Of a stretch of DNA of 64,000 bases, positions 9,315-29,070 are shown one piece after another. Where the stretch lies: assembly GCF_037201975.1 (NCBI RefSeq), contig NZ_CP147520.1, positions 3,534,001 through 3,598,000 on the forward strand, given 5' to 3'. The translations under genes and the position numbers were made by a program. The notes below the pieces were generated by a model. It was not told the origin of the DNA, did not search any database, and was given only the letters and a program-made list of their open reading frames with translations. This DNA comes from Streptomyces sp. TG1A-60. Its GTDB lineage: Bacteria; Actinomycetota; Actinomycetes; Streptomycetales; Streptomycetaceae. Each line of letters starts with the position of its first letter. The first letter of the stretch is position 1.

Positions 9315-10013
9315 ATGGAACCCGTCACGCTGATCACCGGTGGCTCGACCGGAATCGGCGCCGCCACCGCCCGCGCCCTGCTCAAGCAGGGCCAGCGCGT
9401 GGCCGTCACCGGACGTGACGCGGACAAGCTGGCCTCCTTCGCCGCTTCGGCCGGAGCGGACGGACGGCTGCTGACGATCACCGGCGACACCAGCGACGAG
9501 CACGACGTCGCCTCCGCCGTGCGCCACGTGGTGGACGCGTGGGGCCGGCTGGACAACGTCATCGCCAACGCCGGTTTCTCGCTGCCCGGCAACCTGGAGA
9601 GCCACGCCCCCGAGGACATGCGCGCCATGGTCCTCACCAACGTCCTGGGCCCGGCCCTGCTCGTGCGGGAGGCCCTGCCGCACCTCAGGGAGTCCAAGGG
9701 CCGGATCGTGATCATCGGTTCGGTCGCCGGGGTTCGCAACACGCCCGGCAACCTGTACTCGGTCACCAAGTGGGCCGCGCACGCGCTGGCCGAGAACACC
9801 CGGCTGCTGGTCGGCAAGGACGGGGTCGGCGTGACCGTCGTCGCCCCCGGGGTGGTGGACACCCCGTTCTGGGACCAGCGCGGCGGCACCCCCGAGGCGA
9901 CGCCGTCGATGACCGCCGAGCAGATCGCGGACACGATCGTCTTCGCCGTCAACCAGCCCGCGGGCGTGGACATCAACCACATCACCATGCGGCCGGCCGG
10001 GCAGCTCGGCTGA
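9315..10013 (+). CDS. Short-chain dehydrogenase/reductase (classical SDR)
   Basis: The 232-residue product is a classical SDR. It has the cofactor motif TGGSTGIG at residues 8-15, NANAG in the central strand, catalytic Ser in IIGSVAG, and YSVTK as the Tyr-Lys pair. A basic residue pair after the second strand (GRDADK) favours NADP(H). A good ribosome site, GAGGAGG, precedes the ATG. The substrate is not predictable. It is monocistronic and convergent with the hydroxyphenylglycine operon, separated from it by a strong terminator, so it is probably not part of that cluster. Confidence 0.85.
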   Translation: MEPVTLITGGSTGIGAATARALLKQGQRVAVTGRDADKLASFAASAGADGRLLTITGDTSDEHDVASAVRHVVDAWGRLDNVIANAGFSLPGNLESHAPEDMRAMVLTNVLGPALLVREALPHLRESKGRIVIIGSVAGVRNTPGNLYSVTKWAAHALAENTRLLVGKDGVGVTVVAPGVVDTPFWDQRGGTPEATPSMTAEQIADTIVFAVNQPAGVDINHITMRPAGQLG

Positions 10014-10117: not shown

Positions 10118-11221
10118 TCAGGCGGAGAGGTGGGCACACCCACACCCGGGAAGGACCACCCCGGACCGCTCGAAGCCGGCCACGGTTGGCGCCCCCATCA
10201 AGGCCATGACCTCCTCAAACTCGCCCATGAGCAGCCGCAGGACGTCCGCGACGCCCTCCGCGCCGGAGTGGGCGAGCCCCCACAGGGCCGGGCGTCCGAC
10301 CATCACCGCGTCCGCGCCCAGGCACAGGGCCTTGGCGATGTCGGCGCCGTGCCGGACCCCGCCGTCGAGGACGACCGCGCACCGCCCGGCGACGGCGTCC
10401 ACGATCTCGGCGAGGGCATCGGGGGCGCTGCGGGAGAAGTCCAGCTGGCGCCCGCCGTGGTTGGAGACGACCAGCCCAGAGACGCCGTGCTTGACGGCCA
10501 GTTCGGCGTCCTCACCGGTGAGCACGCCCTTCAGCACCACGGGCAGGGAGGTCACCTCGCGCAGCCAGGCGAGGTCCTCCCAGGTGATCGAGGCGTCGAA
10601 CTGCTCCTTGGAGTGCCGGGCGATGGCCGACTCCCCGTCCCGGCCGCCGTGCGAGGCGGCCATCACGTCGTGCGCCACATTGACCGCCCGGATGCCCGGG
10701 GGCACCGCGAACCCGTTGGCGGCGTCCCGGGGACGGAACGCCACCCTGGGCGCGTCGATGGTGAGGACCAGCGCGCGGAAACCGGCGGCCCCGGCCCGGC
10801 GGATCAGGTCCACCAGGAGGTCGCGGCGCTTGAGCCAATACAGCTGCAGCCACAGCGGGCCGGTGGCCGCGGCGGCGATGTCCTCCAGCGTCCGGCTCGC
10901 GAACATGCTGACCGTGAACAGGGCGCCGGCCTCACCCGCCGCCCGCGCCGTCGCCACCTCACCCTCCGGGTGGGCGAGTTGGTGGTACGCCATGGGGGCG
11001 ATGCCCAGGGGGGCGGCGAGGTCCGCCCCGAGCAGCTCGGTGCGGGGGTCGCAGTGGGAGACGTCGACGAGACAGCGAGGCCGCAGCCGGATCCGGTCCA
11101 GGGCCTCCCGTCCCGCCGCCAGCATCGACTCGGTGCCGCTGCCACCCGCGAAGAAGTCCCACACCGGTCGCGGCAGCCGCTCCTTGGCCGCTGCCTCGTA
11201 CGCGCGCAGCGCCAGCACCAC
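10118..11221 (-). CDS. hmo: 4-hydroxymandelate oxidase (FMN alpha-hydroxy-acid oxidase)
   Basis: This flavoenzyme of the glycolate/lactate oxidase family (about 367 residues) converts 4-hydroxymandelate to 4-hydroxyphenylglyoxylate, the third step to hydroxyphenylglycine. Visible features are the FMN-barrel entry PVWDFFAGGSGTE, APMAYHQLAHPEGE, the catalytic His-Arg block VVSNHGGRQLDF, and the phosphate-binding LDGGVRHGADIAKAL and ADAVMVGRP. The GTG at 11221 follows GGAGAAAAT. An upstream TTG in the same frame is an alternative. It is the last gene of the operon, 47 nt after the aminotransferase and just before the terminator. The assignment as 4-hydroxymandelate-specific rests on the neighbouring hydroxymandelate synthase. 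Confidence 0.83.
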   Translation of the reverse strand: MVLALRAYEAAAKERLPRPVWDFFAGGSGTESMLAAGREALDRIRLRPRCLVDVSHCDPRTELLGADLAAPLGIAPMAYHQLAHPEGEVATARAAGEAGALFTVSMFASRTLEDIAAAATGPLWLQLYWLKRRDLLVDLIRRAGAAGFRALVLTIDAPRVAFRPRDAANGFAVPPGIRAVNVAHDVMAASHGGRDGESAIARHSKEQFDASITWEDLAWLREVTSLPVVLKGVLTGEDAELAVKHGVSGLVVSNHGGRQLDFSRSAPDALAEIVDAVAGRCAVVLDGGVRHGADIAKALCLGADAVMVGRPALWGLAHSGAEGVADVLRLLMGEFEEVMALMGAPTVAGFERSGVVLPGCGCAHLSA

Positions 11222-11268
11222 ATTTTCTCCGTTCGCCGTACTCGACAAGGGGTTCGGGACACCGGCCG

Positions 11269-12603
11269 TCAGGCGGCGGTGCCGGTGCTCTGCGCGGTGA
11301 TGAAGGCGGCCAGCCTGGCCATGCCCTCGGTGATGGCCTCCGGGCTCTGCGCGCTGCACGACAGGCGCAGTTGGTGGGTGCCGCCGCCGTCCAGGTGGAA
11401 GTCGCTCATCGGCGTCCACAGCACGCCGTAGGCGCGCGCGGACAGCTCCAGGGCCTTGTGGTCGGCGGCGAAGGGCACCGTGACGACGGCGAAGAAGCCG
11501 CCGTCCGGACGGTTCCAGGAGATGCCGAGCTCGGCCCGGCGCTCCGCGGGGAAGTGCCGCTCCAGCTCGTCGAGGAGCGTGTCCATGTTCGTGCGGTAGT
11601 ACGCGATGGCTCCGGCGTTCGCCTCGCGCAGCCGGCAGTCGCTCTCGATGAGCAGTCCGCCGATGACGGCCTGGCTGACGGCCGAGGTGTTGACGGTCGT
11701 CATGCTCTTGATCTTGGACAGCTCGTCGGCGAGCAGCGAGCGCCGGCCGCCCGGGCCGATGACCTCCTGGTCGGCGATGACGTAGCCCACCCGGGCCCCG
11801 GGCAGCGCCGTCTTGGCGAAGGAGCCCAGGTGCACCACGCGGCGGCCCGTGTCGAGGGCCTTGAGCGTGGGGCGGGCGGAGCCGGTCCGTACGAAGAAGC
11901 CGTAGGGGTCGTCCTCCAGGACGAGCAGGTCCTCCTCCTCGGCCACCCGCAGCAAGCGCTCGCGGTCCGGGAGGCTCATGCTGGTGCCGGACGGGTTGCC
12001 GAAGTCCGGGACGACGTAGAAGGCCCGGACACGTTCGCCGGCTTCCCTGGCGGCCCGCACGGCCGCCGACACGGCCTCCGGGCCAGGACCGGCGGGGCCC
12101 TCGGGCACGGGCCGCAACCGGATGCCCAGGAGCCGGGCCACGCCGGTGATGCCCACGTAGCACGGCGAGCTGACCAGCAGCGTGTCCTCGGGAGCGGCGA
12201 AGAGCGCCCGCAGGATGAGGAGCATGGCCTCCTGGCAGCCGGTCGTCACCACGACGGCTTCCGGGGAAACCTCGATCCCCTCGTCGTTGGCGACCGTCCG
12301 GGCGATCAGCTCGTGGATGATCCCGTTGGTGCGGCCGTACTGGAACAGCTGGGTGCGCACCTGGTCGCGCGACCAGCCCAGGGTCTCTTCCAGGTGGCTG
12401 GTGTACGTGTGCAGGTGGCGCGCGAGGTCCTCGGGCTCGAAGTCGCCCTCGGTGGGCCGACCGGGCGCGAAGGAGATGGCCTGCGGGAACCGGCCGACGA
12501 CCTCGTTGAGGAAGTTCATGGCGTCGAGGACCGGGTCGCTGAGCGACCCGTGCAGCTCGTCGAGCGCCAGGGCGTGCGGGGACGGCAGGGCGGCTTGTGT
12601 CAC
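11269..12603 (-). CDS. hpgT: 4-hydroxyphenylglycine transaminase (PLP, HpgT-type)
   Basis: This fold-type I aminotransferase of 444 residues should convert 4-hydroxyphenylglyoxylate to 4-hydroxyphenylglycine, commonly using tyrosine as amino donor, which returns 4-hydroxyphenylpyruvate to the cycle. The PLP-binding Lys is in LGSFAKTALPGARVGY. Other family marks are TTGCQEAML, VPDFGNPSGTSMS and LEDDPYGFF. It resembles the MocR-type aminotransferase domain without a DNA-binding head, as seen in known HpgT proteins. It starts 3 nt after the prephenate dehydrogenase stop, so translation is probably coupled. Confidence 0.82.
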   Translation of the reverse strand: MTQAALPSPHALALDELHGSLSDPVLDAMNFLNEVVGRFPQAISFAPGRPTEGDFEPEDLARHLHTYTSHLEETLGWSRDQVRTQLFQYGRTNGIIHELIARTVANDEGIEVSPEAVVVTTGCQEAMLLILRALFAAPEDTLLVSSPCYVGITGVARLLGIRLRPVPEGPAGPGPEAVSAAVRAAREAGERVRAFYVVPDFGNPSGTSMSLPDRERLLRVAEEEDLLVLEDDPYGFFVRTGSARPTLKALDTGRRVVHLGSFAKTALPGARVGYVIADQEVIGPGGRRSLLADELSKIKSMTTVNTSAVSQAVIGGLLIESDCRLREANAGAIAYYRTNMDTLLDELERHFPAERRAELGISWNRPDGGFFAVVTVPFAADHKALELSARAYGVLWTPMSDFHLDGGGTHQLRLSCSAQSPEAITEGMARLAAFITAQSTGTAA

Positions 12604-12606
12604 CGC

Positions 12607-13515
12607 TCAGACTCCTCTCGGCGCGGCCGCGTAGGCCGTGCTCAGGGTGGGGGCCGCGGTGGGTGCGGGGATCCGGGCCCGGCCCTGTACGCCGCGGACC
12701 AGGGCCGTGGTGAGCCGGTCCGTGTGGACACGCTGCTGCTCCGGCTCGTGGGCGGTGCCCAGGCCCCGCAGGGCGTCGACCACCTGGTACAGGTCCTGGG
12801 CGAAACCGGCGAGGACGTCGGCGACGGCCACGGCGTTGGAGCCGAGGATGTCGGTCCACAGGTCGGCGCTGCCCGCGGCGAGGCGGGTGATGTCCTGCAG
12901 TCCCTGTCCGGCGAGCCCCAGCTGGGACGGGTCGCCGTGCAGTAACTGCCCCGCGAGCAGGCTCGACACCAGGTGCGGGGCGTGCGAGGTGAGCGCCACC
13001 GCGCGGTCGTGCTCGGCATGGGCCATCACGACCGGCCGGGCGCGACACAACTCGGCCAGGCGCCTGGCGCGTTCGACGGTCTGCGCCCGGGTGTGCGCGG
13101 AGGGGGTGAGCACCCAGGGCCGACCGTGGAACAGGTCGTCCCGGGCGGCGAGCGGGCCGGACTGCTCCCGGCCGCCCATGGGGTGCCCGCCGACGAAGCG
13201 GGTCAGGTCGCAGCCGGCCTGGTCCGCTTCCCGCTGGGGCAGTTCCTTGATGCTCGCGGCGTCCGTGAAGTCGTGGGCGAGTCGCCGCAGTTGGTGTTCC
13301 TTCAGCGCCGCCGCGACGTGCCGCGGTGGTACCGCGATGACGGCCAGGTCGACCGGGCTACGAGGTGTTCCTGCGATTCCGGCGCCGAGGTCCGCGGCGG
13401 TGCGCGCCGCTTCCGGGTTCGCGTCGATCAGGTAGGTGGTCACGCCCCGGCCCCGAAGGGCCAGGGCGATCGAGGTACCGATCAGGCCGGTTCCGACCAC
13501 TGCGGCACTTCGCAT
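12607..13515 (-). CDS. Prephenate dehydrogenase dedicated to hydroxyphenylglycine supply; contains a TTA codon
   Basis: The 302-residue product has a Rossmann N-terminus (VGTGLIGTSIALAL) and the TyrA helical C-terminal domain, with the conserved FVGGHPMGGRE loop and the ITRLAAGSADLWTDI segment. It oxidises prephenate to 4-hydroxyphenylpyruvate, the substrate of hydroxymandelate synthase. A cluster-borne copy is usual in hydroxyphenylglycine pathways. The ATG at 13515 overlaps the preceding stop by one base. Leu191 (12943-12945) is encoded by TTA, rare in this GC range, so expression of this gene likely depends on the bldA tRNA. No C-terminal ACT domain is seen, which would fit escape from tyrosine feedback. 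Confidence 0.85.
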   Translation of the reverse strand: MRSAAVVGTGLIGTSIALALRGRGVTTYLIDANPEAARTAADLGAGIAGTPRSPVDLAVIAVPPRHVAAALKEHQLRRLAHDFTDAASIKELPQREADQAGCDLTRFVGGHPMGGREQSGPLAARDDLFHGRPWVLTPSAHTRAQTVERARRLAELCRARPVVMAHAEHDRAVALTSHAPHLVSSLLAGQLLHGDPSQLGLAGQGLQDITRLAAGSADLWTDILGSNAVAVADVLAGFAQDLYQVVDALRGLGTAHEPEQQRVHTDRLTTALVRGVQGRARIPAPTAAPTLSTAYAAAPRGV

Positions 13516-14432
13516 CAGTGGTGGCTCCACAGGAGCGGGAGATACTCGGGGTCGCTGTAGTCGGGGGTGCCCTCGGCGGTGCGCCGCACGAGCACGTCGT
13601 GGTTGTAGTTGACCTGGGTGCCGTCCGAGCGGAAGAAGTCGCGGTAGCGGTTCTCGCCGTCCTGCAGGTGGAAGGAGATGGCGCGGCGCGGGCGGTCGCT
13701 GACGTTGGCACCGCTGCCGTGGTAGGTGCGGCAGTGGTGGAAGTTGACGTGGCCCTTGGGGATGAAGACCGGGATCTTGTTGACCTCGACCCCGTTGAAG
13801 GCCGCGTTGTCCTCCAGCATTTGATCCAGCTCGGAGGAGTCGCGCTCGGCGAAGTGCAGGGAGGTGGCGTCGTTGTCGGCCGTCTCCTTCCACAGGTGGC
13901 TGCCGTCGACCATCGTGATGGTGCCCATCTCCTCACCGCAGTCGTGGAAGGGGATGAACGCGGTCAGCATCCGCTCGGAGGTGGAGGTGGACCAGTAGTG
14001 GCGGTCGAAGTGCCAGGGCACGATGTTCGACTGCTCCTGCGCCACCGGGGGCTTGTAGATGAGCGTCGACTGGAACACCCGGATCTGCTCGGCCTCGGCC
14101 AGGCGCGCGGCGACGGCGCCCAGCAGCGGCTTGCGCAGGATGCGGCCTATGGTGTCGTCCTCGTAGTGGATGTAGTCGTTGTGCCGCTGGACGTCGCCCT
14201 TCTCCGGCTCCCAGTAGGCCAGCTTGGGCGGGCGTACCGGCAGGGTGCGGTCGCGGTGGCCGGCGTAGAAGCGCTCGCTGGCGGCCTCCAGCTGCTCGAC
14301 CTCGTCGTCGGTGAACAGCTTCTTCGACAGGTACCAGCCGTGCTCGGCGTAGAAGACGACGTCCTCGTCGGTCGGGAGCAGCGCGCGCTCCTCGTCGGTG
14401 AGGGTGAAGCTCTGGGCGTCCTGGATGGTCAT
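13515..14432 (-). CDS. Fe(II)/2-oxoglutarate dioxygenase of the phytanoyl-CoA hydroxylase family
   Basis: The 305-residue product has the metal motif HxD in PWHFDRHYW, and the distal His and 2OG-binding Arg in the RTYHGSGANVSDRPRRAISF region. SNIVPWHFD and MTAFIPFHDCG-like strands support the double-stranded beta-helix fold. It probably hydroxylates or desaturates the peptide or a side chain. It is not part of the known hydroxyphenylglycine pathway, so it marks tailoring chemistry. An AAGGAAG ribosome site precedes the ATG. The gene lies between hydroxymandelate synthase and prephenate dehydrogenase within the operon. The substrate is unknown. Confidence 0.8.
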   Translation of the reverse strand: MTIQDAQSFTLTDEERALLPTDEDVVFYAEHGWYLSKKLFTDDEVEQLEAASERFYAGHRDRTLPVRPPKLAYWEPEKGDVQRHNDYIHYEDDTIGRILRKPLLGAVAARLAEAEQIRVFQSTLIYKPPVAQEQSNIVPWHFDRHYWSTSTSERMLTAFIPFHDCGEEMGTITMVDGSHLWKETADNDATSLHFAERDSSELDQMLEDNAAFNGVEVNKIPVFIPKGHVNFHHCRTYHGSGANVSDRPRRAISFHLQDGENRYRDFFRSDGTQVNYNHDVLVRRTAEGTPDYSDPEYLPLLWSHH

Positions 14433-14484
14433 GGTCTTCCTTACAGGTGCGTGGATCGGTGCAGGGACGGCGCGCGGAGCCGGG

Positions 14485-15549
14485 TCAGGAGACGGCCTTC
14501 TCGCGGGCGACCGCCTCGTAGAGCGCCTTGATGTTGCCGCTGCCGAAGGTGCGGGCGCCGTGCCGGTCGATGACCTCCCAGAAGTACGTCTTCCGTACGT
14601 GCTGGGACTGGGTGAAGATCTGGAACACCTGGCCCCAGTGGTCCTCGTCGATCAGGACGTTGGTCCGGCGCAGGTCCTCGACCTGGAGGTTCGGGCGCTC
14701 GAAGCGCTCCTGGAGCTGTTCGTAGTACGAGCCCGGTGTCTGCAGGAAGCTGACGCCCCGCTTCTCCAGGGTCTGCACGGTGCCCACGATGTCGTCGCAG
14801 AGCAGTGCCAGGTGCTGCACACCGGCGCCGCCGTGGCGGGCCAGGAAGGTGTCGATCTGGCCGGGCTCACGGTCGGTGACCGGCTCGATCAGAGTGAAGG
14901 TCACCTTGCCGGACGGGCTCTGGACGACCTTGGAGTCCATGGCCTGGGTGCCGACCTCGATGAACTCCTCGAAGATCTGCGAGAAGCCGAAGACCTTCTC
15001 GTAGAACGCGACCGTGGGGCGCAGCCGGCCGGCGGGCAGGCAGATCGCCGCGTGGTCCACGGTGCTGAGCAGCTCCTCGCCCGCCTCGGGATCGGCGGCG
15101 ATGATGTCCATCACGCCGGGCAGGAAGTGCTCGCGGTCGCCGGTGCGCTGGACGAACCGGTGGGCGACGTCGCCGAAGCCCAGGACCGTGGCGGTGACCA
15201 CCTCGGTGCCGTCCTTGCTGTGGACGGTGGGCTGCTCGACGGCGGTGGCGCCCCGCTCGACGGCCACCTCGAAGGCCTTGGCGGCGTCGCTGACCTCGAA
15301 GGCGATGTTGGCGACACCGTCACCGTGCTGCATCACGTAGGACGCGGCCGGGTGGGTGGGGTTGAGGGCGGAGGTGAGGACGACCTCGATGCCGCCCTGG
15401 CGCAGCAGCAGCGAGCGGTAGTCGGTCTGCCCGGTCTCGGGACCGGCCTGGCCGCAAATACGGAAGCCGAAAGCGGTGCAGAGGTAGAACGCGGACTGCT
15501 GGGCATCTCCGACGTAGAACTCGACGTGGTCTACGGCCCCGATATCCAT
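14485..15549 (-). CDS. hmaS: 4-hydroxymandelate synthase
   Basis: This non-haem iron dioxygenase of the HPPD fold (354 residues) converts 4-hydroxyphenylpyruvate to 4-hydroxymandelate. The iron ligands appear as His in STVDHAAICL, His in GVQHLALL and Glu in YFWEVIDR. The segment FTLIEP carries Thr and Ile where true HPPDs usually have Pro and Asn (PxNEP), the known signature of hydroxymandelate synthases. The C-terminal GSGNIKALYEAV helix is also typical. The ATG at 15549 has AGAAGGG upstream. The ATG 21 nt further upstream lacks a ribosome site and was rejected. It anchors the interpretation of this operon as a hydroxyphenylglycine pathway. Confidence 0.9.
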   Translation of the reverse strand: MDIGAVDHVEFYVGDAQQSAFYLCTAFGFRICGQAGPETGQTDYRSLLLRQGGIEVVLTSALNPTHPAASYVMQHGDGVANIAFEVSDAAKAFEVAVERGATAVEQPTVHSKDGTEVVTATVLGFGDVAHRFVQRTGDREHFLPGVMDIIAADPEAGEELLSTVDHAAICLPAGRLRPTVAFYEKVFGFSQIFEEFIEVGTQAMDSKVVQSPSGKVTFTLIEPVTDREPGQIDTFLARHGGAGVQHLALLCDDIVGTVQTLEKRGVSFLQTPGSYYEQLQERFERPNLQVEDLRRTNVLIDEDHWGQVFQIFTQSQHVRKTYFWEVIDRHGARTFGSGNIKALYEAVAREKAVS

Positions 15550-15648
15550 GCAAAACCCTTCTGTTTTCATGTTCGAGCAGGAGAAAGTCGAGATGTTTTC
15601 AGGGAGTGGCGAGCGGGCGAATCGAGAGATTCGGCCCCGAACATCGCT

Positions 15649-16155
15649 CTAGAGAGTGGAGAACTCGTTCAGCGGCGACCAGACACCGTAGTCGCCCCGA
15701 CGGTAGAGAAGTGGCTCACGCGGGAAGACTGCGGCGCCTTCCACCCGGCCTATGACAAGCCAATGATCGCTCGCCTCGATCGCATTTTCAACCCTGCATT
15801 CCGCAAAGCCGAGCGAGACTTCGATAAGCAGCGGCGCGCCTTCGGCAATATCCGAGGGGCGCCATTCGACATGTGCGAACTTATCCGTGGCCTTGCTCGC
15901 GAACACCTGAGAGGCGTCGCGCCCGGACGAGGAGAGGAAGTTCACCGCGAACGCCTGCGACGAAATGATCGCCGGCAGTGTGCGGGACTCCTTGCCGACG
16001 GAGACCAGCAGCGTCGACGTCGTCGCCGACACCGCGCAGACGGCGTTGCTGGTGAAACCGTACGGCTCACCCTTTCCGTCCGTTGCCGTCACGATGGCGA
16101 TCGGGGTCGGGAACGAGCCAAAGAGTTCGCTGAAGCGTACAGAACCGACGTCCAT
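15649..16155 (-). CDS. NAD(P)H:flavin oxidoreductase (HpaC/FRP small-component type)
   Basis: The 168-residue product is a flavin reductase-like split-barrel protein, with marks FGSFPTPIAIVTATD, TSNAVCAVSATTSTLLVSVGK, AVNFLSSS and GRVEGA. It supplies reduced FMN or FAD to a partner monooxygenase. The obvious partner is the luciferase-like enzyme at 20030-21088 in the same operon. The ATG at 16155 follows GGAGGA with a 5-nt spacer and gives the normal family length; a longer frame upstream lacks such a site. It is separated by about 100 nt from the exporter and from hmaS. Confidence 0.85.
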   Translation of the reverse strand: MDVGSVRFSELFGSFPTPIAIVTATDGKGEPYGFTSNAVCAVSATTSTLLVSVGKESRTLPAIISSQAFAVNFLSSSGRDASQVFASKATDKFAHVEWRPSDIAEGAPLLIEVSLGFAECRVENAIEASDHWLVIGRVEGAAVFPREPLLYRRGDYGVWSPLNEFSTL

Positions 16156-16233
16156 CAAGTTCCTCCGCGGAACAGCTCGTGAATCTTTTTCGGGCAGGCC
16201 GAAGAAACCAACGGCCAGTGATGGTGTTTTTGT

Positions 16234-16263
16234 AACCGTCGCCGCCTCTTCGCGGCGGCGGTT
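16234..16263. repeat. Hairpin overlapping the exporter stop codon
   Basis: A 12-bp stem (16234-16245 with 16252-16263, one G-T pair) has a 6-nt loop. On the minus transcript it is followed by A residues, not U, so it is more likely an mRNA-stabilising or attenuating structure between exporter and flavin reductase than a full terminator. Confidence 0.4.
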
Positions 16264-17509
16264 ATTCCGCGGTCGCGCCCGCGAGAGTCGCCTCACGTGC
16301 GGCGATCGCGCGGCCGAAAGCCCGGATCGTCAGCGGCAGCATGAACGCACTGAACGCGGTGAGCGCCACGGCCAGTATCAGGACGAGTTGTTGCGGTCCC
16401 AGATTGGATCCGGAGGCGGCCACCAGAAGTCCCGCGATGGGCATGGCCAACATATTGAGCAGGTAGAACGGCCCCATCACCTTTCCGAGGTGTTCTTGGG
16501 GAAGGACCTTGATGCGCTGCGTCCGGTTGAAGACGTTGAAGTACGTCACTCCGACCATGGCCGCCACGAACGCCGGGGCGTACAGCAGCATGGAGGAGGC
16601 GAAGCCGATGAGCAGCAGACAGGAGCAGAGCAGGGCGAGGCCGAAGATCCCGAGCATCCGCACGTTGACGTACCGGAGCAGGAACGGGATGACCAGGAGG
16701 TTGACGATCCCCAGCACGCCGATACAGATGTTCAGCAGGGCGAACGCCGACTCCGGGGCGCGGAACACACCCGTGACCAGTGCGACGTTGGCGGCGAGCA
16801 CCACGGCGAAGACCAGGTTGATCGAGAAGTTGAGCGAGGCCAGCAGGACCAGCGGCCTGCTGCGGACCAGCAGGGACCAGCCCAGCCGGAGTTCGGCGAC
16901 GATCTCCGCGGCTCCGCCGCCGCTGCTGGGGATGCGCAGCCCGCGCGGCAGGGGCAGCCAGCAGGCGGCGGCGACGGCGAAGACCGCCGCGGCGGCGCCG
17001 AGCAGCCAGACCTTGTCGATGAACGCCACGCCCAGCATCGCCAGGGCGGGACCGACGGCCATCGCCGAGACCTCCATGCTCTGCACCACGCCCTGGATCT
17101 TGGCCAGTTCGGTGCCCTTGGCCAGCTGGGGCACGACCTTCTCCACGGACATGCGCACCGGCGCCATCAGCAGCGAGAGCAGTGGCGCGGCTGTCATCAG
17201 GATGGGCGTCAGCAGTGAGGGCGCGGCCAGACAGCCGACGAGGGCGCCGCCGAGGACGACGGCCCGGCCGGCCGTGACGACGGAGAACAGCCGCGGCCCG
17301 CCGTCACGGTCGGCGAGGAGACCGGCGAAGGGGTACGCGAGGAGGGCCGGGAGCCACTCGATCGCGTAGGCGAGGCCGAGGGCCGACACATCCTTGGTGT
17401 CCTGGAAGATGAGCAGCGGGATGGCGAACATCACCATCTGCTCGGCAACGACCCCGAGAAGGACACCGCAGGCGAAGAGCCGTCGGTGCAGCACGGATCG
17501 CGTGGTCAT
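16262..17509 (-). CDS. MFS exporter
   Basis: The 415-residue membrane protein has about twelve hydrophobic helices and MFS loops (GLLADRDGGPRL after TM2, QVLPQEHLGKVMGPF-like in the second half). It resembles the macrolide/peptide efflux group (DitE/MefA-like). Within the operon it is likely the product exporter and self-resistance determinant. The ATG at 17509 (MTTRSVLHRR) follows AAGGGAG. A longer frame would add an Arg/Ser-rich, non-membrane leader and overlap the preceding gene, so it was rejected. Confidence 0.82.
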   Translation of the reverse strand: MTTRSVLHRRLFACGVLLGVVAEQMVMFAIPLLIFQDTKDVSALGLAYAIEWLPALLAYPFAGLLADRDGGPRLFSVVTAGRAVVLGGALVGCLAAPSLLTPILMTAAPLLSLLMAPVRMSVEKVVPQLAKGTELAKIQGVVQSMEVSAMAVGPALAMLGVAFIDKVWLLGAAAAVFAVAAACWLPLPRGLRIPSSGGGAAEIVAELRLGWSLLVRSRPLVLLASLNFSINLVFAVVLAANVALVTGVFRAPESAFALLNICIGVLGIVNLLVIPFLLRYVNVRMLGIFGLALLCSCLLLIGFASSMLLYAPAFVAAMVGVTYFNVFNRTQRIKVLPQEHLGKVMGPFYLLNMLAMPIAGLLVAASGSNLGPQQLVLILAVALTAFSAFMLPLTIRAFGRAIAAREATLAGATAE

Positions 17510-17561
17510 AAGATCGATCGCTCCCTTGTGCTCGGCCGGGAGCGGCCCGGCCCGAGACTCC

Positions 17562-18806
17562 TCACTGCGACACCGGAACGGTTTCGATGTGGAAATCGGC
17601 GATGATCTTCCGGATGTCCTCCTCGACGGCCGGCTCGTCGCCGGTGAAGATGAACCGCCCGCTGTGCACCGCGTCATAGCTGCCGCCGGGCTCCATCACC
17701 TCGCCCGGGGCCGGCACCAACTCCCGCCAGATCGTGGCGAAGCGGTCCCGCATGGAGGTCGCCGAGACGACCTCGGCCGGCAGTCCGGCGGGCTTCGGGA
17801 TGATCAGCCAGCCGCCGGACGGGTCGCCCGTCTGCGGCGGGACCGTCGCCCGACCCTCGCACAGGGCGTCCAGCCAGAGCTCGAAGAGGTTGACCCCGAA
17901 GAGCTTGTCCGTGAGGTACGGCACCTCGGCCCCGCCGATGCGGCCCGCGATCTCCAGGAACACCAGGTCCCCGTCGGGCGTGACGAAGAGTTCCAGGTGG
18001 AACGGCATGGAGGTCATGCCCAGACCCGACACGCAGCGCCGGGCGAACTCGTGCACACGGGCGCGCAGCGGGGAGTCCTGGACGACGACCGAGCCGAGCG
18101 GCTGCCCGCCGGCCTCGAAGGCCAGGCAGTCGTTGATGTAGCGGGACACCGCCATGAACGGGATCCCGGCGTCCTCGTCCGCGAACCCGTCGACGTGGTA
18201 GATCGCGCCTTCGACGAACTCCTCGAGCTCGTAGTCGCCGAGGTCGACCTCCGACAGCAGCGCGGTGAGCGCGGCCTCGTCCTCGACCCGGTGCACACCC
18301 ATGCTCGCGGCCCCGGACACCGGCTTGAGGATCAGCGGGAACCCGGTTGCCCGGGCGAACTCCAGCGCGGACTCGGCGCTTCCGCAGGCGTCGAAGCGGG
18401 GCACTCGGACGCCCGCCTCGGCGACGAGCTCCTTCATCCGCAGCTTGTCGCGGTAGACCGCGACGTCCTCCGGGCGGGGCCCGGGGATGCCGAGCGCCAC
18501 GCGGACCTCGGCCGCGATGCCGAGGGTGAACTCGGAGACGGCGATCAGCCGGTCGACCGGGCCGGCCTCGTCCGCGACCCGGCGGACCGCGTCGCGCAGC
18601 GCCTCGAAGTCGTTGACGTCCTCGATCTGGACGGTGCTCGCGATCCGCTCGGGATCGGCAAGGATCCCGGTGGCGCCGACCGCGTCGACGACGTAGCTGA
18701 CGCGGTGCCGCTCATGGTCGATGAGCTCCTCGAAGCGGCCCATCGAGAAGTCCCAGCGCGGCCCTTTCGTGAACCGCGGCCAGCGGTTGACGACGACAAT
18801 GTGCAT
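17562..18806 (-). CDS. ATP-grasp ligase 1
   Basis: The 414-residue carboxylate-amine ligase of the ATP-grasp superfamily starts with MHIVVVNRWP. Its pre-ATP-grasp Rossmann-like domain ends near residue 110. The ATP-binding core contains PLILKPVSGAASMGV and LEEFVEGAIYHVDGF, followed by the metal-binding LVFLEIAGRIGG. Such enzymes activate a carboxylate as acyl-phosphate and couple it to an amine, building peptides without NRPS. It starts 3 nt after the next ligase gene ends, with GGAGGAG upstream. Sequence differs clearly from the other two ligases here, so each probably makes a different bond. Substrate unknown. Confidence 0.83.
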   Translation of the reverse strand: MHIVVVNRWPRFTKGPRWDFSMGRFEELIDHERHRVSYVVDAVGATGILADPERIASTVQIEDVNDFEALRDAVRRVADEAGPVDRLIAVSEFTLGIAAEVRVALGIPGPRPEDVAVYRDKLRMKELVAEAGVRVPRFDACGSAESALEFARATGFPLILKPVSGAASMGVHRVEDEAALTALLSEVDLGDYELEEFVEGAIYHVDGFADEDAGIPFMAVSRYINDCLAFEAGGQPLGSVVVQDSPLRARVHEFARRCVSGLGMTSMPFHLELFVTPDGDLVFLEIAGRIGGAEVPYLTDKLFGVNLFELWLDALCEGRATVPPQTGDPSGGWLIIPKPAGLPAEVVSATSMRDRFATIWRELVPAPGEVMEPGGSYDAVHSGRFIFTGDEPAVEEDIRKIIADFHIETVPVSQ

Positions 18807-18809
18807 GGC

Positions 18810-20033
18810 TCACTCCTCCGTCGCCACGGAAACCGTCTTGATCGACAGGGTTCGCCGGACGAACTCGATGGCTTCTTCCAGCTCCTCGCGCGAGTCCGCG
18901 ACGAGCACCGCGTACCCGGTGCGCTGCAGGGAGGAGGAGGTCCGCTGGACGGTGTCGCCGGCCTTCACCTTGGCGGCGGCGTCCACGACGGCGGGGTGCG
19001 CGCGGACCTCGTCGAGGCCGTCGACGGCGATCACCTCGCCGGGGTCGGAGACCACGAAGAGACTGGCCGTGAACTTCACCGGCCCCTCGGGCGGCGGCGG
19101 CAGCTCGTCACCGACGACGAGCCGCAGCACCAGCTCGAACCAGTCCATCCCGTACGCCAGGGAGCACAGCTCCATGATGTAGTCGCCTGGCGTGCGGACC
19201 GCGACCTCCATCACCGAGGGGCCAGAGCTCGTCATCCGGAATTCCAGGTGCACGATGCCGGTGCGCATCCCGATGGCGGCGATGACGGACCGACCCAGTT
19301 CGGCGACCTGCTCGGCCTCGGCGGGCGGCAGGGACACCGCGGCCCGGTGCTCCAGTTCGACGAAGTTGGGCGCGCCCGTGGTGGTCTTGGCGGTCAGGCT
19401 CGCGAACCAGACCTCGCCGTCGCGGACCAGGGCCTCCCAGCTGTACTCGGGGCCCTCGACCGCGGTCTCCACCAGCAGCGGCCGCTCCGAGGCGCGTCGT
19501 GCCGCCGCGGCGTCGAAGGCGGCGGCGTCGGTGACGAGTTCGACGCCGTCGCTGCCGGCCGACGACAGCGGCTTGATCACCACGGGGAGGCGGGCCTTGG
19601 CCCACTCGGCCGCCCCGGCCAAGTCGTTGGTGAGGAGGTAGTCGGGCTGGCCGATCCCGTGGGCGCGGAACCGCCCGCGCTGCAGTGCCTTGTTCCGCGA
19701 GACCACGGCCGCCCTCAGGGACGGTCCGGGCAGCCCGTGGGTCTCCTGGGCCAGGGCGGCGCCCAGGACGTGGCACTCGGTGAACCCGAGGATCCCGGCC
19801 GGGCGGCTGCGCAGGGCGGCGTCGTGGGCGGTCTCCGCCCACAGCTCGTCCAGCGAGCCGTACTGGCCCTGGCTCGGCTCGACGGTGTCGACCAGGCCCT
19901 CGATGCCGACGGCCCAGTCCTGCGACTCGATACCGCGGACCCGCAGGCCGAGCCGGCGGGCGGCTGCCACGTACGGGCGGCCCATGATCCCGACGCCGAC
20001 GAGCAGCACTTCGCGCTCTTCCCGCCCGCTCAT
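18810..20033 (-). CDS. ATP-grasp ligase 2
   Basis: The 407-residue ATP-grasp protein has an N-terminal domain VLLVGVGIMGRPYV, an ATP-binding lysine strand LPVVIKPLSSAGSDGVEL, an acidic loop VEGPEYSWEALV, and the metal-binding end SVMEVAVRTPGDYIMEL. The C-terminal domain (about 300-407) resembles that of L-amino acid ligases of the BacD/biotin-carboxylase-like group. The ATG overlaps the stop of the monooxygenase gene as ATGA. It is probably a peptide bond-forming enzyme; the amino acid pair is not predictable from sequence. Confidence 0.83.
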   Translation of the reverse strand: MSGREEREVLLVGVGIMGRPYVAAARRLGLRVRGIESQDWAVGIEGLVDTVEPSQGQYGSLDELWAETAHDAALRSRPAGILGFTECHVLGAALAQETHGLPGPSLRAAVVSRNKALQRGRFRAHGIGQPDYLLTNDLAGAAEWAKARLPVVIKPLSSAGSDGVELVTDAAAFDAAAARRASERPLLVETAVEGPEYSWEALVRDGEVWFASLTAKTTTGAPNFVELEHRAAVSLPPAEAEQVAELGRSVIAAIGMRTGIVHLEFRMTSSGPSVMEVAVRTPGDYIMELCSLAYGMDWFELVLRLVVGDELPPPPEGPVKFTASLFVVSDPGEVIAVDGLDEVRAHPAVVDAAAKVKAGDTVQRTSSSLQRTGYAVLVADSREELEEAIEFVRRTLSIKTVSVATEE

Positions 20034-21088
20034 GAGCCCTGCTCTTCGAGACGACGGATCAGGGGGGCGACGTGGGTGAAGAAGTTCCGCATCTCGTCGC
20101 GGGTCGGCCAGCCGGAGAAGATGAACTCGCTGATGCCCGCGGCCTTGTAGCTGTGGATGTAGCGGGCGACTTCCTCGTGGCTGCCGACGATGCACAGCGC
20201 CGGGCCGCCGCGGTAGGCCACGGCACCGGTCCAGATGTAGGGCGAGAGCCACTCGTCCTTGGCGCTTTCCGCCAGCTGGTACGAGGACTTGACCGCCTCG
20301 GAGTCGGTGGTGTTCACCCACTGGCGGATCCACGCCGTGTGGTCCTCGTCCGGGTTTCGCATGAGGTTGGCGAGCTCCGCCACCGCCTCCTCGCGCGTGT
20401 CGCGGGACAGCACGTGCATACGGGTGCCCACGCGGCGGCCGGCGTCCAGGAGCGGCTTGCTCGCCTTGGCCATGCCCTCGGGGGTGTCGCCGTAGCGCAG
20501 CCAGCAGTCGCCGGAGGCGATCGCCGTCTGCTGGGCGACGGCGGAGGCGCCGCTGATGTAGATCTCCGGGCGGCCTCCGTCCTTGTGGCCGAGGCCGAGT
20601 GAGGCGTCCTTGAGGGTGTAGTGCTGGCCGTCGTAGCTCATGGGCGACTCGCCCTCCCAGAGGCCGCGGATGACCTCAAGGAACTCGTTGCACCGGGCGT
20701 AGCGCTCGTCGTGGCTGAGGAAGTCGCCGTAACCGGCCTGCTCCGCCGGGGAGATGCCGGAGACGATGTTGAGGGACATGCGCCCGTCGGTCATCCAGGA
20801 CAGGGTGTTGACGACCTGCGCGAACAGGGTCGGCGACATCAGGCCCGGGCGGTAGGCCAGCATGAACTTGACGCGGTCCGTCACCTGCGAGAGGGCGCCG
20901 AGCACCGGCAGCGGGTCGGGCAGATAGTTGGAGATACCGAACAGCAGGCTGTCGACGCCGAGCTCTTCGGCTTCCTGGACGAAGTCCCTGACCTCGCCCA
21001 TGTCCAACTTGCCGATCTTGTACGTGTCCGTGGGCGTCGCCTGTCCCGTGTCGGGCGGCGAGCACCAGTGGAGACGGAGGGGTTCCAT
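20030..21088 (-). CDS. Luciferase-like (LLM class) FMNH2-dependent monooxygenase
   Basis: The 352-residue bacterial luciferase-type TIM barrel is close to the SsuD/alkanesulfonate monooxygenase group. Marks are the start PLRLHWCSPPDTGQ, FMLAYRPGLMSPTLFAQ, the RMSLNIVSG strand and YISGASAVAQQTA. It needs reduced FMN from a separate reductase, which is encoded in the same operon at 15649-16155. It may N-hydroxylate an amine or oxidise a carbon next to nitrogen or sulfur. The ATG at 21088 follows GGAAGAAAG. The stop overlaps the ligase 2 start. Confidence 0.85.
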   Translation of the reverse strand: MEPLRLHWCSPPDTGQATPTDTYKIGKLDMGEVRDFVQEAEELGVDSLLFGISNYLPDPLPVLGALSQVTDRVKFMLAYRPGLMSPTLFAQVVNTLSWMTDGRMSLNIVSGISPAEQAGYGDFLSHDERYARCNEFLEVIRGLWEGESPMSYDGQHYTLKDASLGLGHKDGGRPEIYISGASAVAQQTAIASGDCWLRYGDTPEGMAKASKPLLDAGRRVGTRMHVLSRDTREEAVAELANLMRNPDEDHTAWIRQWVNTTDSEAVKSSYQLAESAKDEWLSPYIWTGAVAYRGGPALCIVGSHEEVARYIHSYKAAGISEFIFSGWPTRDEMRNFFTHVAPLIRRLEEQGS

Positions 21089-21136
21089 CGTGCTTCTTTC
21101 TTCCGTTGCGGGCACCGGGCACGCGTTGACGTTTTT

Positions 21137-22381
21137 TCAGGCGCCGAGCACGCGGACGCGGTCGCCGATCTCGGACCAGCGCTCGTGGGCCTCTTCGGGG
21201 GAGTCGGCGGTGAAGACGACGGCGGCGATCCGGCAGCTGTAGTCGGCCTCGTCCGTCTTGATCCCTGCGCCGGGCTCGACGAGGACGTGGCTCCCCACCA
21301 CCCAGGGCTCGGCGGCGAGTTCGCCCCAGCCTTCGAGCCGCGCGTACGAACCCGTGCCGCCGGCCGTCAGGAAGCGGATTCCGGCCGCCTTGGCGACGGG
21401 CTCGCGGTACGCACCCGAGCGCTCCGGGTCGGCGCCGGTGATGCTCGCGAGGACCTTGCCCGGCAGCATGAGGCCGGTGGCCATTTCCATCAGCTCGGTG
21501 ATCTTGTCGCCGGGCAGTCGCGCGGCCACCTCCATGAGGACCGGGCGGCCCTCGCTGAGGCGCAGTTCGCAGTGGAACGGGCCGGTCGTGATGCCCACGG
21601 CCTCGACGACACGCGTGGCGTACGACGCCAGTTCGTGGCGCGTGGCCTCATCCAGCGGGGCGGGCGTGAGGTGTCCGAGTTCCAGGAACCGGGGCTCGGG
21701 ACCGAGCAGCTTCCGGGTCACCGCGACGACGACCACTTCTCCGTCGCGCACATATCCGTCGGCGCTGTACTCCGTACCGGGCACGTATTGTTCGAGGATC
21801 GCGTCGCGGGTGAGCGTGCGGTCGAATTCGAGCCCTTCCTCGGCGTGCATCGCGGCCAGTGCCGCGCGCGCCTCCTCGATACTGTCGACGCGCGAGACGT
21901 GCACGCTGCCGCCGGAATCGACGGGCTTGATGACCGCGGGGAGCCCGACGTGCGCACAGGCCTCTTCGAGGTCCGCCGGGTCGCTCACGACCATGAACTT
22001 CGGCACTTCCAGGCCGGCCTCGGCCACTGCTTGGCGCATTTTCCCCTTGTGCCGGACCTGGTCGACGGCGGTGGGGGTCAGGGCAGGCAGTCCGAGACGC
22101 GCTGACAATTGCGCGGAACCGGGTACGTAGTATTCACCTCCGGCCACCACGGCATGAATCGCGTTACGCTCATGGGATTCCACGACAGCGGCCTCAAGGG
22201 CAGCGCTGTCATTGGTGTCCACCGTGATTATCTCGGTGGTAAGCGAGCGTACCGCGTCGGCGATTACACGGCCCCCTTTCTCATAGGAGGCCACGACAAC
22301 ATCCCAGCCGATGGAACGGGCGTGCACGATATAGGCGTTCGCCGAGAACGCCGGCTGCACCACTAGGACACGATAAGACAC
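21137..22381 (-). CDS. ATP-grasp ligase 3 (first gene of the operon)
   Basis: The 414-residue ATP-grasp protein starts VLVVQPAFSANAYI. It has the ATP-binding strand LPAVIKPVDSGGSVHV, LEQYVPGTEYSADGYV and metal-binding VLMEVAARLPGDKI. It resembles the carbamoyl-phosphate synthase/L-amino acid ligase-type ATP-grasp found in small peptide clusters. The start is GTG at 22381 with GAGGA 7 nt upstream. It is the promoter-proximal gene. The next gene follows after 48 nt. Three non-identical ligases suggest a tri- or tetrapeptide, or ligation of non-amino-acid units. Confidence 0.83.
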   Translation of the reverse strand: MSYRVLVVQPAFSANAYIVHARSIGWDVVVASYEKGGRVIADAVRSLTTEIITVDTNDSAALEAAVVESHERNAIHAVVAGGEYYVPGSAQLSARLGLPALTPTAVDQVRHKGKMRQAVAEAGLEVPKFMVVSDPADLEEACAHVGLPAVIKPVDSGGSVHVSRVDSIEEARAALAAMHAEEGLEFDRTLTRDAILEQYVPGTEYSADGYVRDGEVVVVAVTRKLLGPEPRFLELGHLTPAPLDEATRHELASYATRVVEAVGITTGPFHCELRLSEGRPVLMEVAARLPGDKITELMEMATGLMLPGKVLASITGADPERSGAYREPVAKAAGIRFLTAGGTGSYARLEGWGELAAEPWVVGSHVLVEPGAGIKTDEADYSCRIAAVVFTADSPEEAHERWSEIGDRVRVLGA

Positions 22382-24767: not shown

Positions 24768-25481
24768 TCACAACCAGCGCGGAACGCCCGGGAGTTCACC
24801 CGTGACAAGCAGCTCGTCGATGCCGCCCCGGCCGGTGAGCCAGGCGGCGAGGGCGTACGGCGGTCCGGTGACCGTGACACCGGTGGGGGGCGTGCCGAGC
24901 ACGACGGTGCCGTGGCCCTCCGCCGTCAGCTCGGCGCCCGTGTCCGGTTCGACGCGGGCCGACATCCATCCGGCCACATCGCGGACGAGGGCCCACGCCA
25001 GGTCGGGCGGCAGGACGTCCATGCCGACACCGACGTCCAGGTCGACCAGGTGGATCCAGACCTCGCGGACCCGGAGCCAGGGCACTTCCGAGGCCGGGAT
25101 CTCGCGCCCCTGACCGCTGACGACCGTGGCCGACCAGGCGTCGCCGGACAGGGCCTCAGCGGCTTTCCGGAACCGGGCGGCGGACTCCCGTACGTCCGCC
25201 CGCTGTTCGGCCGACGGCCGTCCGGCGCCCGCCTCGATGTCCGTGGCGCGCTGGTCCGGCGAGGCGTACATGGGCGTACGGATCCCCGTCCGGGCCCAGG
25301 TCAGCAGGTTGACCAGGGCGTCGGCGTTGCGGGCGAGGTGGGTGAGCAGGTGGCCGCGGGTCCAGCCGGGCAGGGCGGACGGCTCGGTCACCGCGTCGGC
25401 GGTCAGCGCGTCGACCGCCCGCTGCAGCGCGAGCTGCCCGTCCTCGACCCAGTCCAGCAGTGTGGCGACGGGGACCTTCAC
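24768..25481 (-). CDS. Maleylpyruvate isomerase (mycothiol-dependent, DinB-like fold)
   Basis: The 237-residue protein belongs to the mycothiol-dependent maleylpyruvate isomerase family. The N-terminal DinB-like bundle contains LPGWTRGHLLTHLARNADAL, with the metal-binding His, and LRVREVWIHLVDLDVGVGM. The C-terminal MDMPI domain ends the chain. It isomerises maleylpyruvate to fumarylpyruvate after gentisate ring cleavage. The GTG start at 25481 overlaps the stop of the hydrolase gene (GTGA). It is the last gene of the salicylate operon. Confidence 0.85.
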   Translation of the reverse strand: MKVPVATLLDWVEDGQLALQRAVDALTADAVTEPSALPGWTRGHLLTHLARNADALVNLLTWARTGIRTPMYASPDQRATDIEAGAGRPSAEQRADVRESAARFRKAAEALSGDAWSATVVSGQGREIPASEVPWLRVREVWIHLVDLDVGVGMDVLPPDLAWALVRDVAGWMSARVEPDTGAELTAEGHGTVVLGTPPTGVTVTGPPYALAAWLTGRGGIDELLVTGELPGVPRWL

Positions 25482-26311
25482 GGCTTGTCCTCGACGATCG
25501 TGTTCACGCACTCCCCGACGCCCTCGACCACGGTCCGTACGACCTGGCCGGGCTTCAGGAACACCTTGGGATCGCGGGCCGCGCCGACCCCGCCCGGGGT
25601 GCCGGTGAGGACGAGGTCGCCCGGCTCCAGGGTCGTGAACGTGCTGAGGTAAGCGGCGATGTGGGCAGGGGTGAAGAGCAGGTCGGACGTGCGCGAGCAC
25701 TGCATGACCTCGCCGTCCACCTCAAGGCGGATCTCCAGGTCGGCCGCGTCGCCGACCTCGTCGCCGGTCACCAGCCAGGGCCCGGCCGGGGTACTGGCCT
25801 CCCACGCCTTGCCCTGGAGCCACTGCGGGGTACGCCACTGCCAGTCCCGCATGGAGATGTCGTTGACGACGGTGTAGCCCGCGATCGCGGCCGCCGCCTC
25901 GTCCTCGGTGGCCCGGCGGCGCAGCCGGGAGCCGATGACGAAGCCCAGTTCGGCCTCCCAGTCCAGCTCCTGCGTCTCGCCGGGATGGACGATGTCGTCG
26001 CGCGCGCCGAGCAGGACGTTGGCGAATTTGCCGAAGAGGGCGGGATACGACGGCATCTCGCGGCCCATCTCCGCGATGTGGGTGCGGTAGTTGTGGCCCA
26101 CACAGAAGATCTTGGCCGGGGTCGTGACGACCGGGGCGAGGTCGAGTGTGGCCGTGTCGTGCGCCGGCCCGTCGGCGGCGGCAGCGTACGTACGCCAGTC
26201 GGGGCGGCGCAGCAGGGCGGCGACGTCGGGGGCTCCGGTCTCCACGGCCCGGTCGCCGTCGAGGCGGACGGCCGCCGTCCCGTCGGCAGTGCGGATGGTG
26301 GCGAGCTTCAT
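25478..26311 (-). CDS. Fumarylpyruvate hydrolase (FAH family)
   Basis: The 277-residue FAH-fold hydrolase cleaves fumarylpyruvate to fumarate and pyruvate. Seen: KIFCVGHNYRTHIAEMG, the metal-binding ELDWEAELGFVIG, YTVVNDISMRDWQ, and LTGTPGGVGAARDP near the C-terminus. The context between maleylpyruvate isomerase and gentisate dioxygenase fixes the function. Start and stop both overlap neighbours by ATGA and GTGA. Confidence 0.88.
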   Translation of the reverse strand: MKLATIRTADGTAAVRLDGDRAVETGAPDVAALLRRPDWRTYAAAADGPAHDTATLDLAPVVTTPAKIFCVGHNYRTHIAEMGREMPSYPALFGKFANVLLGARDDIVHPGETQELDWEAELGFVIGSRLRRRATEDEAAAAIAGYTVVNDISMRDWQWRTPQWLQGKAWEASTPAGPWLVTGDEVGDAADLEIRLEVDGEVMQCSRTSDLLFTPAHIAAYLSTFTTLEPGDLVLTGTPGGVGAARDPKVFLKPGQVVRTVVEGVGECVNTIVEDKP

Positions 26312-27396
26312 GCGCGGGTGCTCCCGGTCGTCTCGGTGCGGGCGAGGTTGAGCGCCTCGTAGAGGGGCGCGTCGTTGAAGGTGAACAGGTCGAGCCGGGT
26401 GTGCGCGGCGATGGTCAGCGCGCACCAGGAGGGGACGGCGATCAGGTCGCCGGCGGACACCTCGATCACGCGATCGTCGAGGGTGACGGTCCCGCTTCCG
26501 CGGAAGACCTGCCAGACGGAGGAGCCGACGGTTCGGCGGGTGGCTGTCGTAGCGCCCGCGCGCAGGCGGTGCATCTCGGTGCGCAGGCTGGCCAGGGCGT
26601 CACGGCCGGTGCCGGGGTTGGTGAAGCGGATGCCCGCGTGGCCGGGCTCGATGACCCCCGCGTACCCCTCGTCCTCCAGCTCCAGCTGGGCGGTGAGGGC
26701 GTCGTCGGTGTCGGCCCGACGGTAGGCCATGAGCGGGGAGTCGGGGTTGTCCCCGGCCGCGATCGGGCGCAGCCCGGGGTGGCCCCACAGCCGCTCGTTG
26801 CGCGACCGGGTCGGGGTCGACCGGTCCGACACGCCGTCCTCGCCGAACTCGAAGAACCCGGCGTCGAGGCGGTGCACGAGCGGGATGTCGAGGCCGTCCA
26901 GCCACACCATCGGCGCGTCACCGACGTGGTGGTGGCCGTGCCAGTGCATCGACGGGGTGAGGAGCAGGTCGCCGGGGCGCATCTCGACCGCGTCGCCGTT
27001 GACGACCGTCCAGACGCCCTCGCCCTCCAGGATGAACCGGAAGGCGCCCTGCGAGTGGCGGTGCGCGGGGGCGACCTCGCGGGGGCCGAGGTACTGAACG
27101 GCCGCCCAGAGGTTGGGAGTCGCGTACGGCCGTCCGGGCAGGCCGGGGTTGGCGAGCGCGATCGCGCGGCGTTCACCGCCGCGTCCCACCGGGACCAGGT
27201 CGCCGGACCGGCGGGCGAGCGGCAGCAGGGTGTCCCACTGCCAGACGTGCGGGACGGCCTCGGGCTGCGGGGTGAGCGGCATGAGGTTGCCGATCTCGGT
27301 CCACAGGGGGATGAGTCCGGCCGCCTGGAATCCGTCGTACAGCTCGCGGAGTCCGGGGTCCGTCTCCTCCGGGGCTATGACGGTGTCACTGGTCAT
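26308..27396 (-). CDS. sdgD: Gentisate 1,2-dioxygenase (bicupin)
   Basis: The 362-residue bicupin ring-cleaving enzyme opens gentisate to maleylpyruvate with Fe(II). The N-terminal cupin has HRHSQGAFRFILEGEG and the downstream His block SMHWHGHHHVGD; the second cupin has VWQVFRGSG and ISVPSW-like sequence. Order and operon match the sdg (salicylate degradation via gentisate) system described in Streptomyces sp. WA46. The gene starts 11 nt inside the end of the ligase gene. Confidence 0.88.
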   Translation of the reverse strand: MTSDTVIAPEETDPGLRELYDGFQAAGLIPLWTEIGNLMPLTPQPEAVPHVWQWDTLLPLARRSGDLVPVGRGGERRAIALANPGLPGRPYATPNLWAAVQYLGPREVAPAHRHSQGAFRFILEGEGVWTVVNGDAVEMRPGDLLLTPSMHWHGHHHVGDAPMVWLDGLDIPLVHRLDAGFFEFGEDGVSDRSTPTRSRNERLWGHPGLRPIAAGDNPDSPLMAYRRADTDDALTAQLELEDEGYAGVIEPGHAGIRFTNPGTGRDALASLRTEMHRLRAGATTATRRTVGSSVWQVFRGSGTVTLDDRVIEVSAGDLIAVPSWCALTIAAHTRLDLFTFNDAPLYEALNLARTETTGSTRA

Positions 27397-29059: not shown

Positions 29060-29070
29060 GGTCGTTCTCC

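Follow-up and report, generated by a model that had tools for sequence, protein, structure and literature searches.

Introduction

Among the characteristic building blocks of antibiotics made by nonribosomal peptide synthetases (NRPSs) is 4-hydroxyphenylglycine (Hpg). In NRPS clusters, for example those of the glycopeptides, nocardicin and the calcium-dependent antibiotic, the Hpg operons combine genes for a prephenate dehydrogenase (PDH), a 4-hydroxymandelate synthase (HmaS), a 4-hydroxymandelate oxidase (Hmo) and an aminotransferase. Here we analyze a stretch of 64,000 nt from Streptomyces sp. TG1A-60 (contig NZ_CP147520.1, positions 3,534,001 to 3,598,000 of the forward strand; hereafter the window), in which genes of these four kinds share an operon with three ATP-grasp ligase genes. 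Unlike the NRPS-associated operons, this unit lacks an NRPS, and a gene of the PhyH family lies inside its Hpg cassette. The whole is best explained if the cluster makes a short NRPS-independent peptide containing Hpg, which we regard as probable.

Ligase-assembled peptides are known from other pathways, of which mangotoxin offers the closest experimental parallel that we found. In mangotoxin biosynthesis (mboABCDEF), according to the accessible part of the source, the ATP-grasp ligases MboC and MboD make a tripeptide, Leu-Ala-Arg, which the HDO-type oxidase MboA then modifies; the reductase MboB and the deiminase MboE also act on it (PMC13185094). The same part of that source counts at least 25 unique clusters that pair an HDO with an ATP-grasp ligase, so clusters of ligase plus oxidase are already a known kind (PMC13185094). 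The TG1A-60 cluster resembles the mangotoxin cluster in the predicted NRPS-free assembly of a short peptide by ATP-grasp amino acid ligases (two in mangotoxin) and in oxidase tailoring. It is set apart by an SsuD-like monooxygenase with a flavin reductase, a PhyH protein, one more ligase and the genes of an Hpg pathway. None of its 12 genes belongs to the families of MboA, MboB or MboE, and it is thus not a mangotoxin cluster.

Pheganomycin and resorcinomycin likewise combine an ATP-grasp ligase with a phenylglycine-type unit. Their phenylglycine chemistry is different, however, and pheganomycin has a ribosomal precursor, whereas here HmaS and Hmo are present and no precursor gene was found in the unit. 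The hvr (pantaphos) cluster shares a flavin-dependent monooxygenase, a flavin reductase, ATP-grasp proteins and an exporter of the major facilitator superfamily (MFS); as the accessible part of its description has it, that cluster encodes a phosphonate pathway with an NtaA-type monooxygenase and is without Hpg genes (PMC7858074). Our search of the open-licence literature, including the accessible parts of PMC13338154, PMC7794033, PMC13185094 and PMC7858074, found no description of this gene set, of an Hpg cassette in a ligase–oxidase cluster or of the monooxygenase family, in agreement with a preliminary description of the window that had recognized no known cluster.

Results

Gene content of the unit

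Eleven genes form one minus-strand run in the order LigA, LLM, LigB, LigC, MFS, FRed, HmaS, PhyH, PDH, HpgT and Hmo, with neighbors overlapping by 1–4 nt or separated by at most 109 nt. Ten were identified by open reading frame (ORF) listing together with Pfam and NCBIfam scans, and Hmo by sequence matches in the PDB. All eleven genes named in the preliminary description were recovered on this strand, yet the boundary it drew was incomplete. A plus-strand gene at 9315..10013, encoding a short-chain dehydrogenase (SDR; Pfam adh_short), is a twelfth member of the unit.

The Hpg half comprises five genes. PDH (12607..13515) matches Pfam PDH_N and PDH_C and scores above the NCBIfam cut-off. HmaS (14485..15549) hits the NCBIfam 4HPPD superfamily model; its best PDB match is 2r5v (345 bits), which we take to be a hydroxymandelate synthase structure, against 252 bits for the 4-hydroxyphenylpyruvate dioxygenase (HPPD) 1t47, a difference in sequence score only. 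One other full-length HmaS relative, 43% identical, occurs in the genome and is presumably the strain's HPPD. Hmo (10118..11221; start at 11221, 11218 or 11248) matches the solved 4-hydroxymandelate oxidase 5zzp at 1.9e-89, and glycolate oxidases score slightly higher. The aminotransferase (11269..12603; class I/II, Pfam Aminotran_1_2) has only generic pyridoxal phosphate-dependent aminotransferases as PDB relatives, so we call it HpgT by context only. Of the Hpg pathway claimed for the operon, PDH and HmaS thus stand by family and score, and the oxidase and transaminase are assigned partly through context. Together, these four enzymes are inferred to supply L-Hpg. The fifth gene, PhyH (13515..14432; Pfam PhyH), is described below.

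The three ligases are mutually dissimilar, as proposed, with pairwise identities of 28–32%. LigA (21137..22381) and LigB (18810..20033) were identified by domain scan, including an LAL_C2 domain in each, by matches to solved proteins and by alignment; LigC (17562..18806) by domain scan and invariant residues of catalytic type. All three match solved L-amino acid ligases in the PDB and keep a Glu/Glu/Arg pattern. In LigC, K161, E272, E285 and R289 are invariant in all 17 aligned proteins; we assume for them the catalytic roles of their BacD counterparts. On this evidence all three belong to the ATP-grasp family, are of L-amino-acid-ligase type and retain the catalytic residues. Another ATP-grasp protein, 28% identical to LigC, is encoded at 12001–13179 of a sequence from a 33-kb plasmid of the honeybee bacterium Apilactobacillus kunkeei; this plasmid also has ketosynthase genes, and 13 plasmid records match.

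The remaining operon genes encode LLM (20030..21088, alternative start 21115), a luciferase-like protein resembling the SsuD monooxygenase, which depends on reduced flavin mononucleotide (FMNH2); a flavin reductase (FRed, 15649..16155; Pfam Flavin_Reduct), presumed to supply LLM with FMNH2; and a predicted MFS exporter (16262..17509; Pfam MFS_1).

The unit recurs as a block

A search of 392 Streptomyces genomes with LigB (E ≤ 1e-100) matched 17, five of which, counting TG1A-60 itself, have the full operon. The other four are G026 (a S. djakartensis contig; L001/L022), G063 (a uw30 contig; L003/L023), G285 (L021) and G207 (L024), and in all four the flanks are unrelated. When window ORFs called by a simple ORF picker were compared with the fetched flanks of relatives, the SDR gene was the sole non-operon ORF in common, besides one partial match at 33%. 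All five relatives have it, the S. monashensis locus (L002) included; in L001, L002 and L021 it follows past Hmo, and in L003 and L024 it is on the opposite side of the operon, upstream of LigA. Since all relatives share it, the 12 genes seem to travel together. dN/dS was below 1 for each intact orthologue for which it could be calculated (0.04–0.55; two L003 genes excluded because of N). Recurrence of the whole block in four genomes and these ratios argue that the operon is more than a chance arrangement. The 12-gene unit is apparently a self-contained, mobile biosynthetic island.

The S. monashensis copy is a mosaic. From window position 16425 down to 9089, covering the end of MFS, FRed, the Hpg cassette and SDR, it is 95.3% identical over 7391 bp; the LigA/LLM stretch is 82.9% identical and the LigC stretch 86.0%. 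Synonymous divergence is 0.22–0.77 in LigA, LLM and LigC, 0.20 in FRed and 0.04–0.09 across the six-gene stretch HmaS to SDR. L003 and L024 show no such difference between halves (85.1% throughout; 84.6% and 85.9%). The unequal divergence in S. monashensis indicates that the Hpg half can have its own history.

LLM keeps company with ATP-grasp genes

Searching with LLM (E ≤ 1e-80) gave 15 places in 13 of 394 Streptomycetaceae genomes. In a phylum-wide draw of 396 genomes, LLM was present in one, TG1A-60 itself; family members also appear among protein-search matches from Nocardia, Micromonospora, Burkholderia and Pseudomonas. We compared 13 loci: the 12 places outside clusters of the window type, plus L025, found via LigB. 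As controls we used ten larger multi-ligase clusters without LLM (L027–L036) from the LigB search, chosen for an ATP-grasp gene. These Streptomyces control loci have up to six ATP-grasp matches; the one that was scanned, L034, also encodes a PALP enzyme, an MFS protein and a mycothiol-dependent nitroreductase-like protein.

All 13 LLM loci contain an ATP-grasp gene to which LigC is the best match, identified by direct tblastn in L053 and others; in L025, L052, L053, L054 and L058 its product is a clear orthologue, 58–64% identical to LigC. A relative of the MFS protein (54–69%) was found in 9/13 LLM loci and 0/10 controls, and a flavin reductase in 11/13 by a loose count and 5/13 by a strict one (controls 0/10, strict). 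Hpg genes were found in none of the 13. Moreover, LLM and LigC distances correlate across the 13 loci (rho 0.89; 0/2000 permutations as high), as they do across nine non-redundant loci (rho 0.81; 3/2000).

The accompanying supply genes vary, and several loci carry ones for amino acids other than Hpg. L052 and L054 have methylaspartate mutase E in common, and L052 adds an amino-acid kinase, a semialdehyde dehydrogenase and a class III aminotransferase. An ornithine-cyclodeaminase-like (OCD) protein and a Haem_oxygenas_2 oxidase (HDO) are common to L025 and L058, and a DUF1611 protein to L055, L056, L057 and L059. In L053, LigC, MFS and LLM adjoin, with a thioesterase; genome G207 holds both this small locus and the full cluster L024. 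In a Pseudoalteromonas locus (L109), LLM and an FMN reductase are accompanied by two ATP-grasp genes and a DAHP synthase/chorismate mutase, with a marginal match to prephenate dehydratase. Separately, the Paraburkholderia phymatum symbiotic plasmid carries an HDO gene and two ATP-grasp genes between nif and nod genes (L111, 7043–10293); the HDO of LLM locus L061 shares 53% identity with this one.

LLM keeps part of the SsuD active site only. Taking the SsuD set to be Cys54, Arg226, His228, Arg297 and Tyr331, equivalents of Arg226 and Arg297 are present in 15/15 family members, His228 is His or Gln, and Tyr331 is replaced by Trp in 15/15. The Cys54 equivalent is absent from the window LLM, which therefore lacks the full set of the SsuD/MsuD alkanesulfonate monooxygenases. 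A fold search placed the predicted LLM model, of moderate confidence (mean pLDDT 79.0), near MsuD/SsuD.

PhyH travels with Hpg genes

The preliminary description had listed a 2OG dioxygenase in the operon, and PhyH fits this. H141, D143, H238 and R249 are invariant in 15/15 aligned proteins; from their spacing relative to human PhyH, we presume them to be the Fe/2OG residues. Fold search puts the predicted model, also of moderate confidence (mean pLDDT 79.6), closest to SnoK/SnoN and to amino-acid hydroxylases, with matches that include a proline hydroxylase, EctD and GriE; neither this search nor the one with LLM points to a substrate.

With PhyH as query (E ≤ 1e-40), 32 of 391 genomes of the order gave 39 places, four of them this cluster; 20 of the remaining 35 were compared. 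An HmaS-like gene is present in 19 (the miss is L108) and in none of the ten controls. At the search thresholds used, Hmo was found in 16/20, HpgT in 8/20 and PDH in 8/20, and LLM and the three ligases in 0/20. Several PhyH loci carry ketosynthase and AMP-ligase genes, and condensation-domain (C-domain) matches are weak (3/20). PhyH thus accompanies Hpg genes whatever the assembly machinery. A partnership of PhyH with the ligases was considered and dropped, given the counts for HmaS-like genes and ligases.

Within this sample, Hpg cassettes that include PhyH adjoin genes of ketosynthase, AMP-ligase, desaturase or E1 type in L089–L107 (these families were identified in L092, L099, L101 and L107). 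Several non-NRPS uses of Hpg-type genes are apparently represented among them.

Proposed pathway

The cluster joins two parts that travel separately elsewhere, one of LLM and ligase and one of Hpg genes and PhyH. By family assignment, PDH, HmaS, Hmo and the aminotransferase would lead to L-Hpg. LigA, LigB and LigC could then link Hpg to other amino acids through at most three amide bonds. LLM and the flavin reductase may carry out an oxidation with FMNH2 and O2 on a part of the product that is independent of Hpg, because LLM pairs with ATP-grasp ligases in clusters without Hpg genes. PhyH would oxidize the Hpg-derived unit, since its association is with the Hpg genes rather than the ligases. 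SDR may adjust the redox state, and the MFS protein would export the product. As a hypothesis, this interpretation is well supported by the sequence comparisons; the chemistry itself is a prediction.

A broader reading is possible, and we put it forward tentatively. The cluster could belong to a so far undescribed class of modular NRPS-free peptide pathways, in which a chassis makes a constant oxidized moiety and swappable cassettes supply a variable residue. The chassis would consist of the SsuD-like FMNH2 monooxygenase, an ATP-grasp ligase of the LigC kind, the exporter and the flavin reductase. The cassette would be Hpg plus PhyH here and, elsewhere, the methylaspartate-mutase/semialdehyde, OCD plus HDO or prephenate-dehydratase sets.

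Alternative explanations

Several observations weigh against these proposals. ATP-grasp ligases can join acids other than amino acids too, and for Hmo and HpgT, glycolate oxidases and generic aminotransferases are close alternative assignments. LigB is gone from the S. monashensis genome (best match 31%) with the Hpg half kept, and MFS is reduced at that locus to a 55-residue match. The LigC relative is 32–43% identical in eight of the 13 LLM loci, and seven of the ten controls also pass the loose LigC threshold; the 13/13 count therefore shows an ATP-grasp partner, not LigC itself. The strict rule likewise cuts the flavin reductase count from 11 to five. Among the PhyH loci, 7/19 HmaS-like proteins are 42–49% identical to HmaS, about as distant as the presumed HPPD of the TG1A-60 genome, and judged by sequence alone could be HPPD-like.

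An acylated amino acid is an unlikely alternative product: the ligases would couple an amino acid with a 4-hydroxyphenyl acid other than Hpg (4-hydroxymandelate or 4-hydroxyphenylglyoxylate), leaving the aminotransferase to serve another residue. The generic relatives of the aminotransferase and the recovery of HpgT in just 8/20 PhyH loci agree with this. Many PhyH/HmaS loci also carry acyl-activating AMP-ligases and ketosynthases, so 4-hydroxyphenyl units may serve there as acyl groups. Yet the aminotransferase lies within the cassette in 5/5 relatives, S. monashensis among them, at 87–99% identity, and the ligases resemble L-amino acid ligases. It is quite improbable that the cassette feeds an NRPS elsewhere while the ligase and LLM genes make an unrelated product. 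The unit has neither an NRPS nor a precursor-peptide gene, judged by window ORFs, family scans and gap ORFs; the NRPS absence first noted is borne out to that extent, but the genome itself encodes two large NRPSs (6331 and 2854 aa), and the Hpg half could be inherited separately from the ligase half. Four adenylation (A) domains in one and two in the other were read from motifs, using codes that we assume for Ser, Thr and Hpg. None of the six is Hpg-like (two Ser-like, one Thr-like, one of acyl-ligase type and two unassignable), which speaks against this alternative; the scope of the reading, the two large NRPSs without minor C-domain hits or stand-alone A domains, is in turn a point against our own proposal. 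The NRPS alternative is also opposed by the linkage of the two halves, which is kept amid unrelated flanks in four other species.

We see very little likelihood in a pheganomycin-like route, with the ligases attaching a unit derived from Hpg to a ribosomal peptide whose gene lies outside the cluster. The accessible part of PMC7794033 does describe pheganomycin ATP-grasp ligases that work with a precursor peptide. Against this, no conserved small ORF occurs in the operon gaps, which at ≤109 nt leave no room for one; the sole candidate on the operon strand, between FRed and HmaS, is not conserved. The unit thus lacks the ribosomal precursor gene of pheganomycin-type clusters, and its three ligases are of amino-acid-ligase type. 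A short NRPS-free Hpg peptide remains our preferred explanation. The cluster had been put forward as a candidate new peptide cluster with ATP-grasp ligases, and this is borne out in part: it is NRPS-free, has its own predicted Hpg supply, is retained as one unit across several species and has no description that we found in the open-licence literature searched.

Other genes in the window

Two further minus-strand regions were noted. At 2740–5971, PADLOC detected two proteins of a type II Wadjet system, JetB2 (2740–4446) and JetA2 (4298–5971), with E-values of 1.5e-182 and 1.3e-169. At 25478–29764, adjoining genes for an FAA hydrolase, a cupin protein and an AMP-binding enzyme look like an aromatic-acid (gentisate-type) breakdown operon.

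Discussion

If the proposed pathway is correct, making Hpg peptides with three ligases would offer a compact route that is easy to express and engineer. The occurrence of PhyH beside HmaS-like genes in nearly all sampled loci makes its function directly testable. A plug-in layout would provide a list of related clusters with a common monooxygenase and differing amino-acid supply. Should the modular reading be true, the TG1A-60 cluster would put Hpg to use through ligase assembly, with PhyH as a previously unrecognized Hpg-tailoring enzyme.

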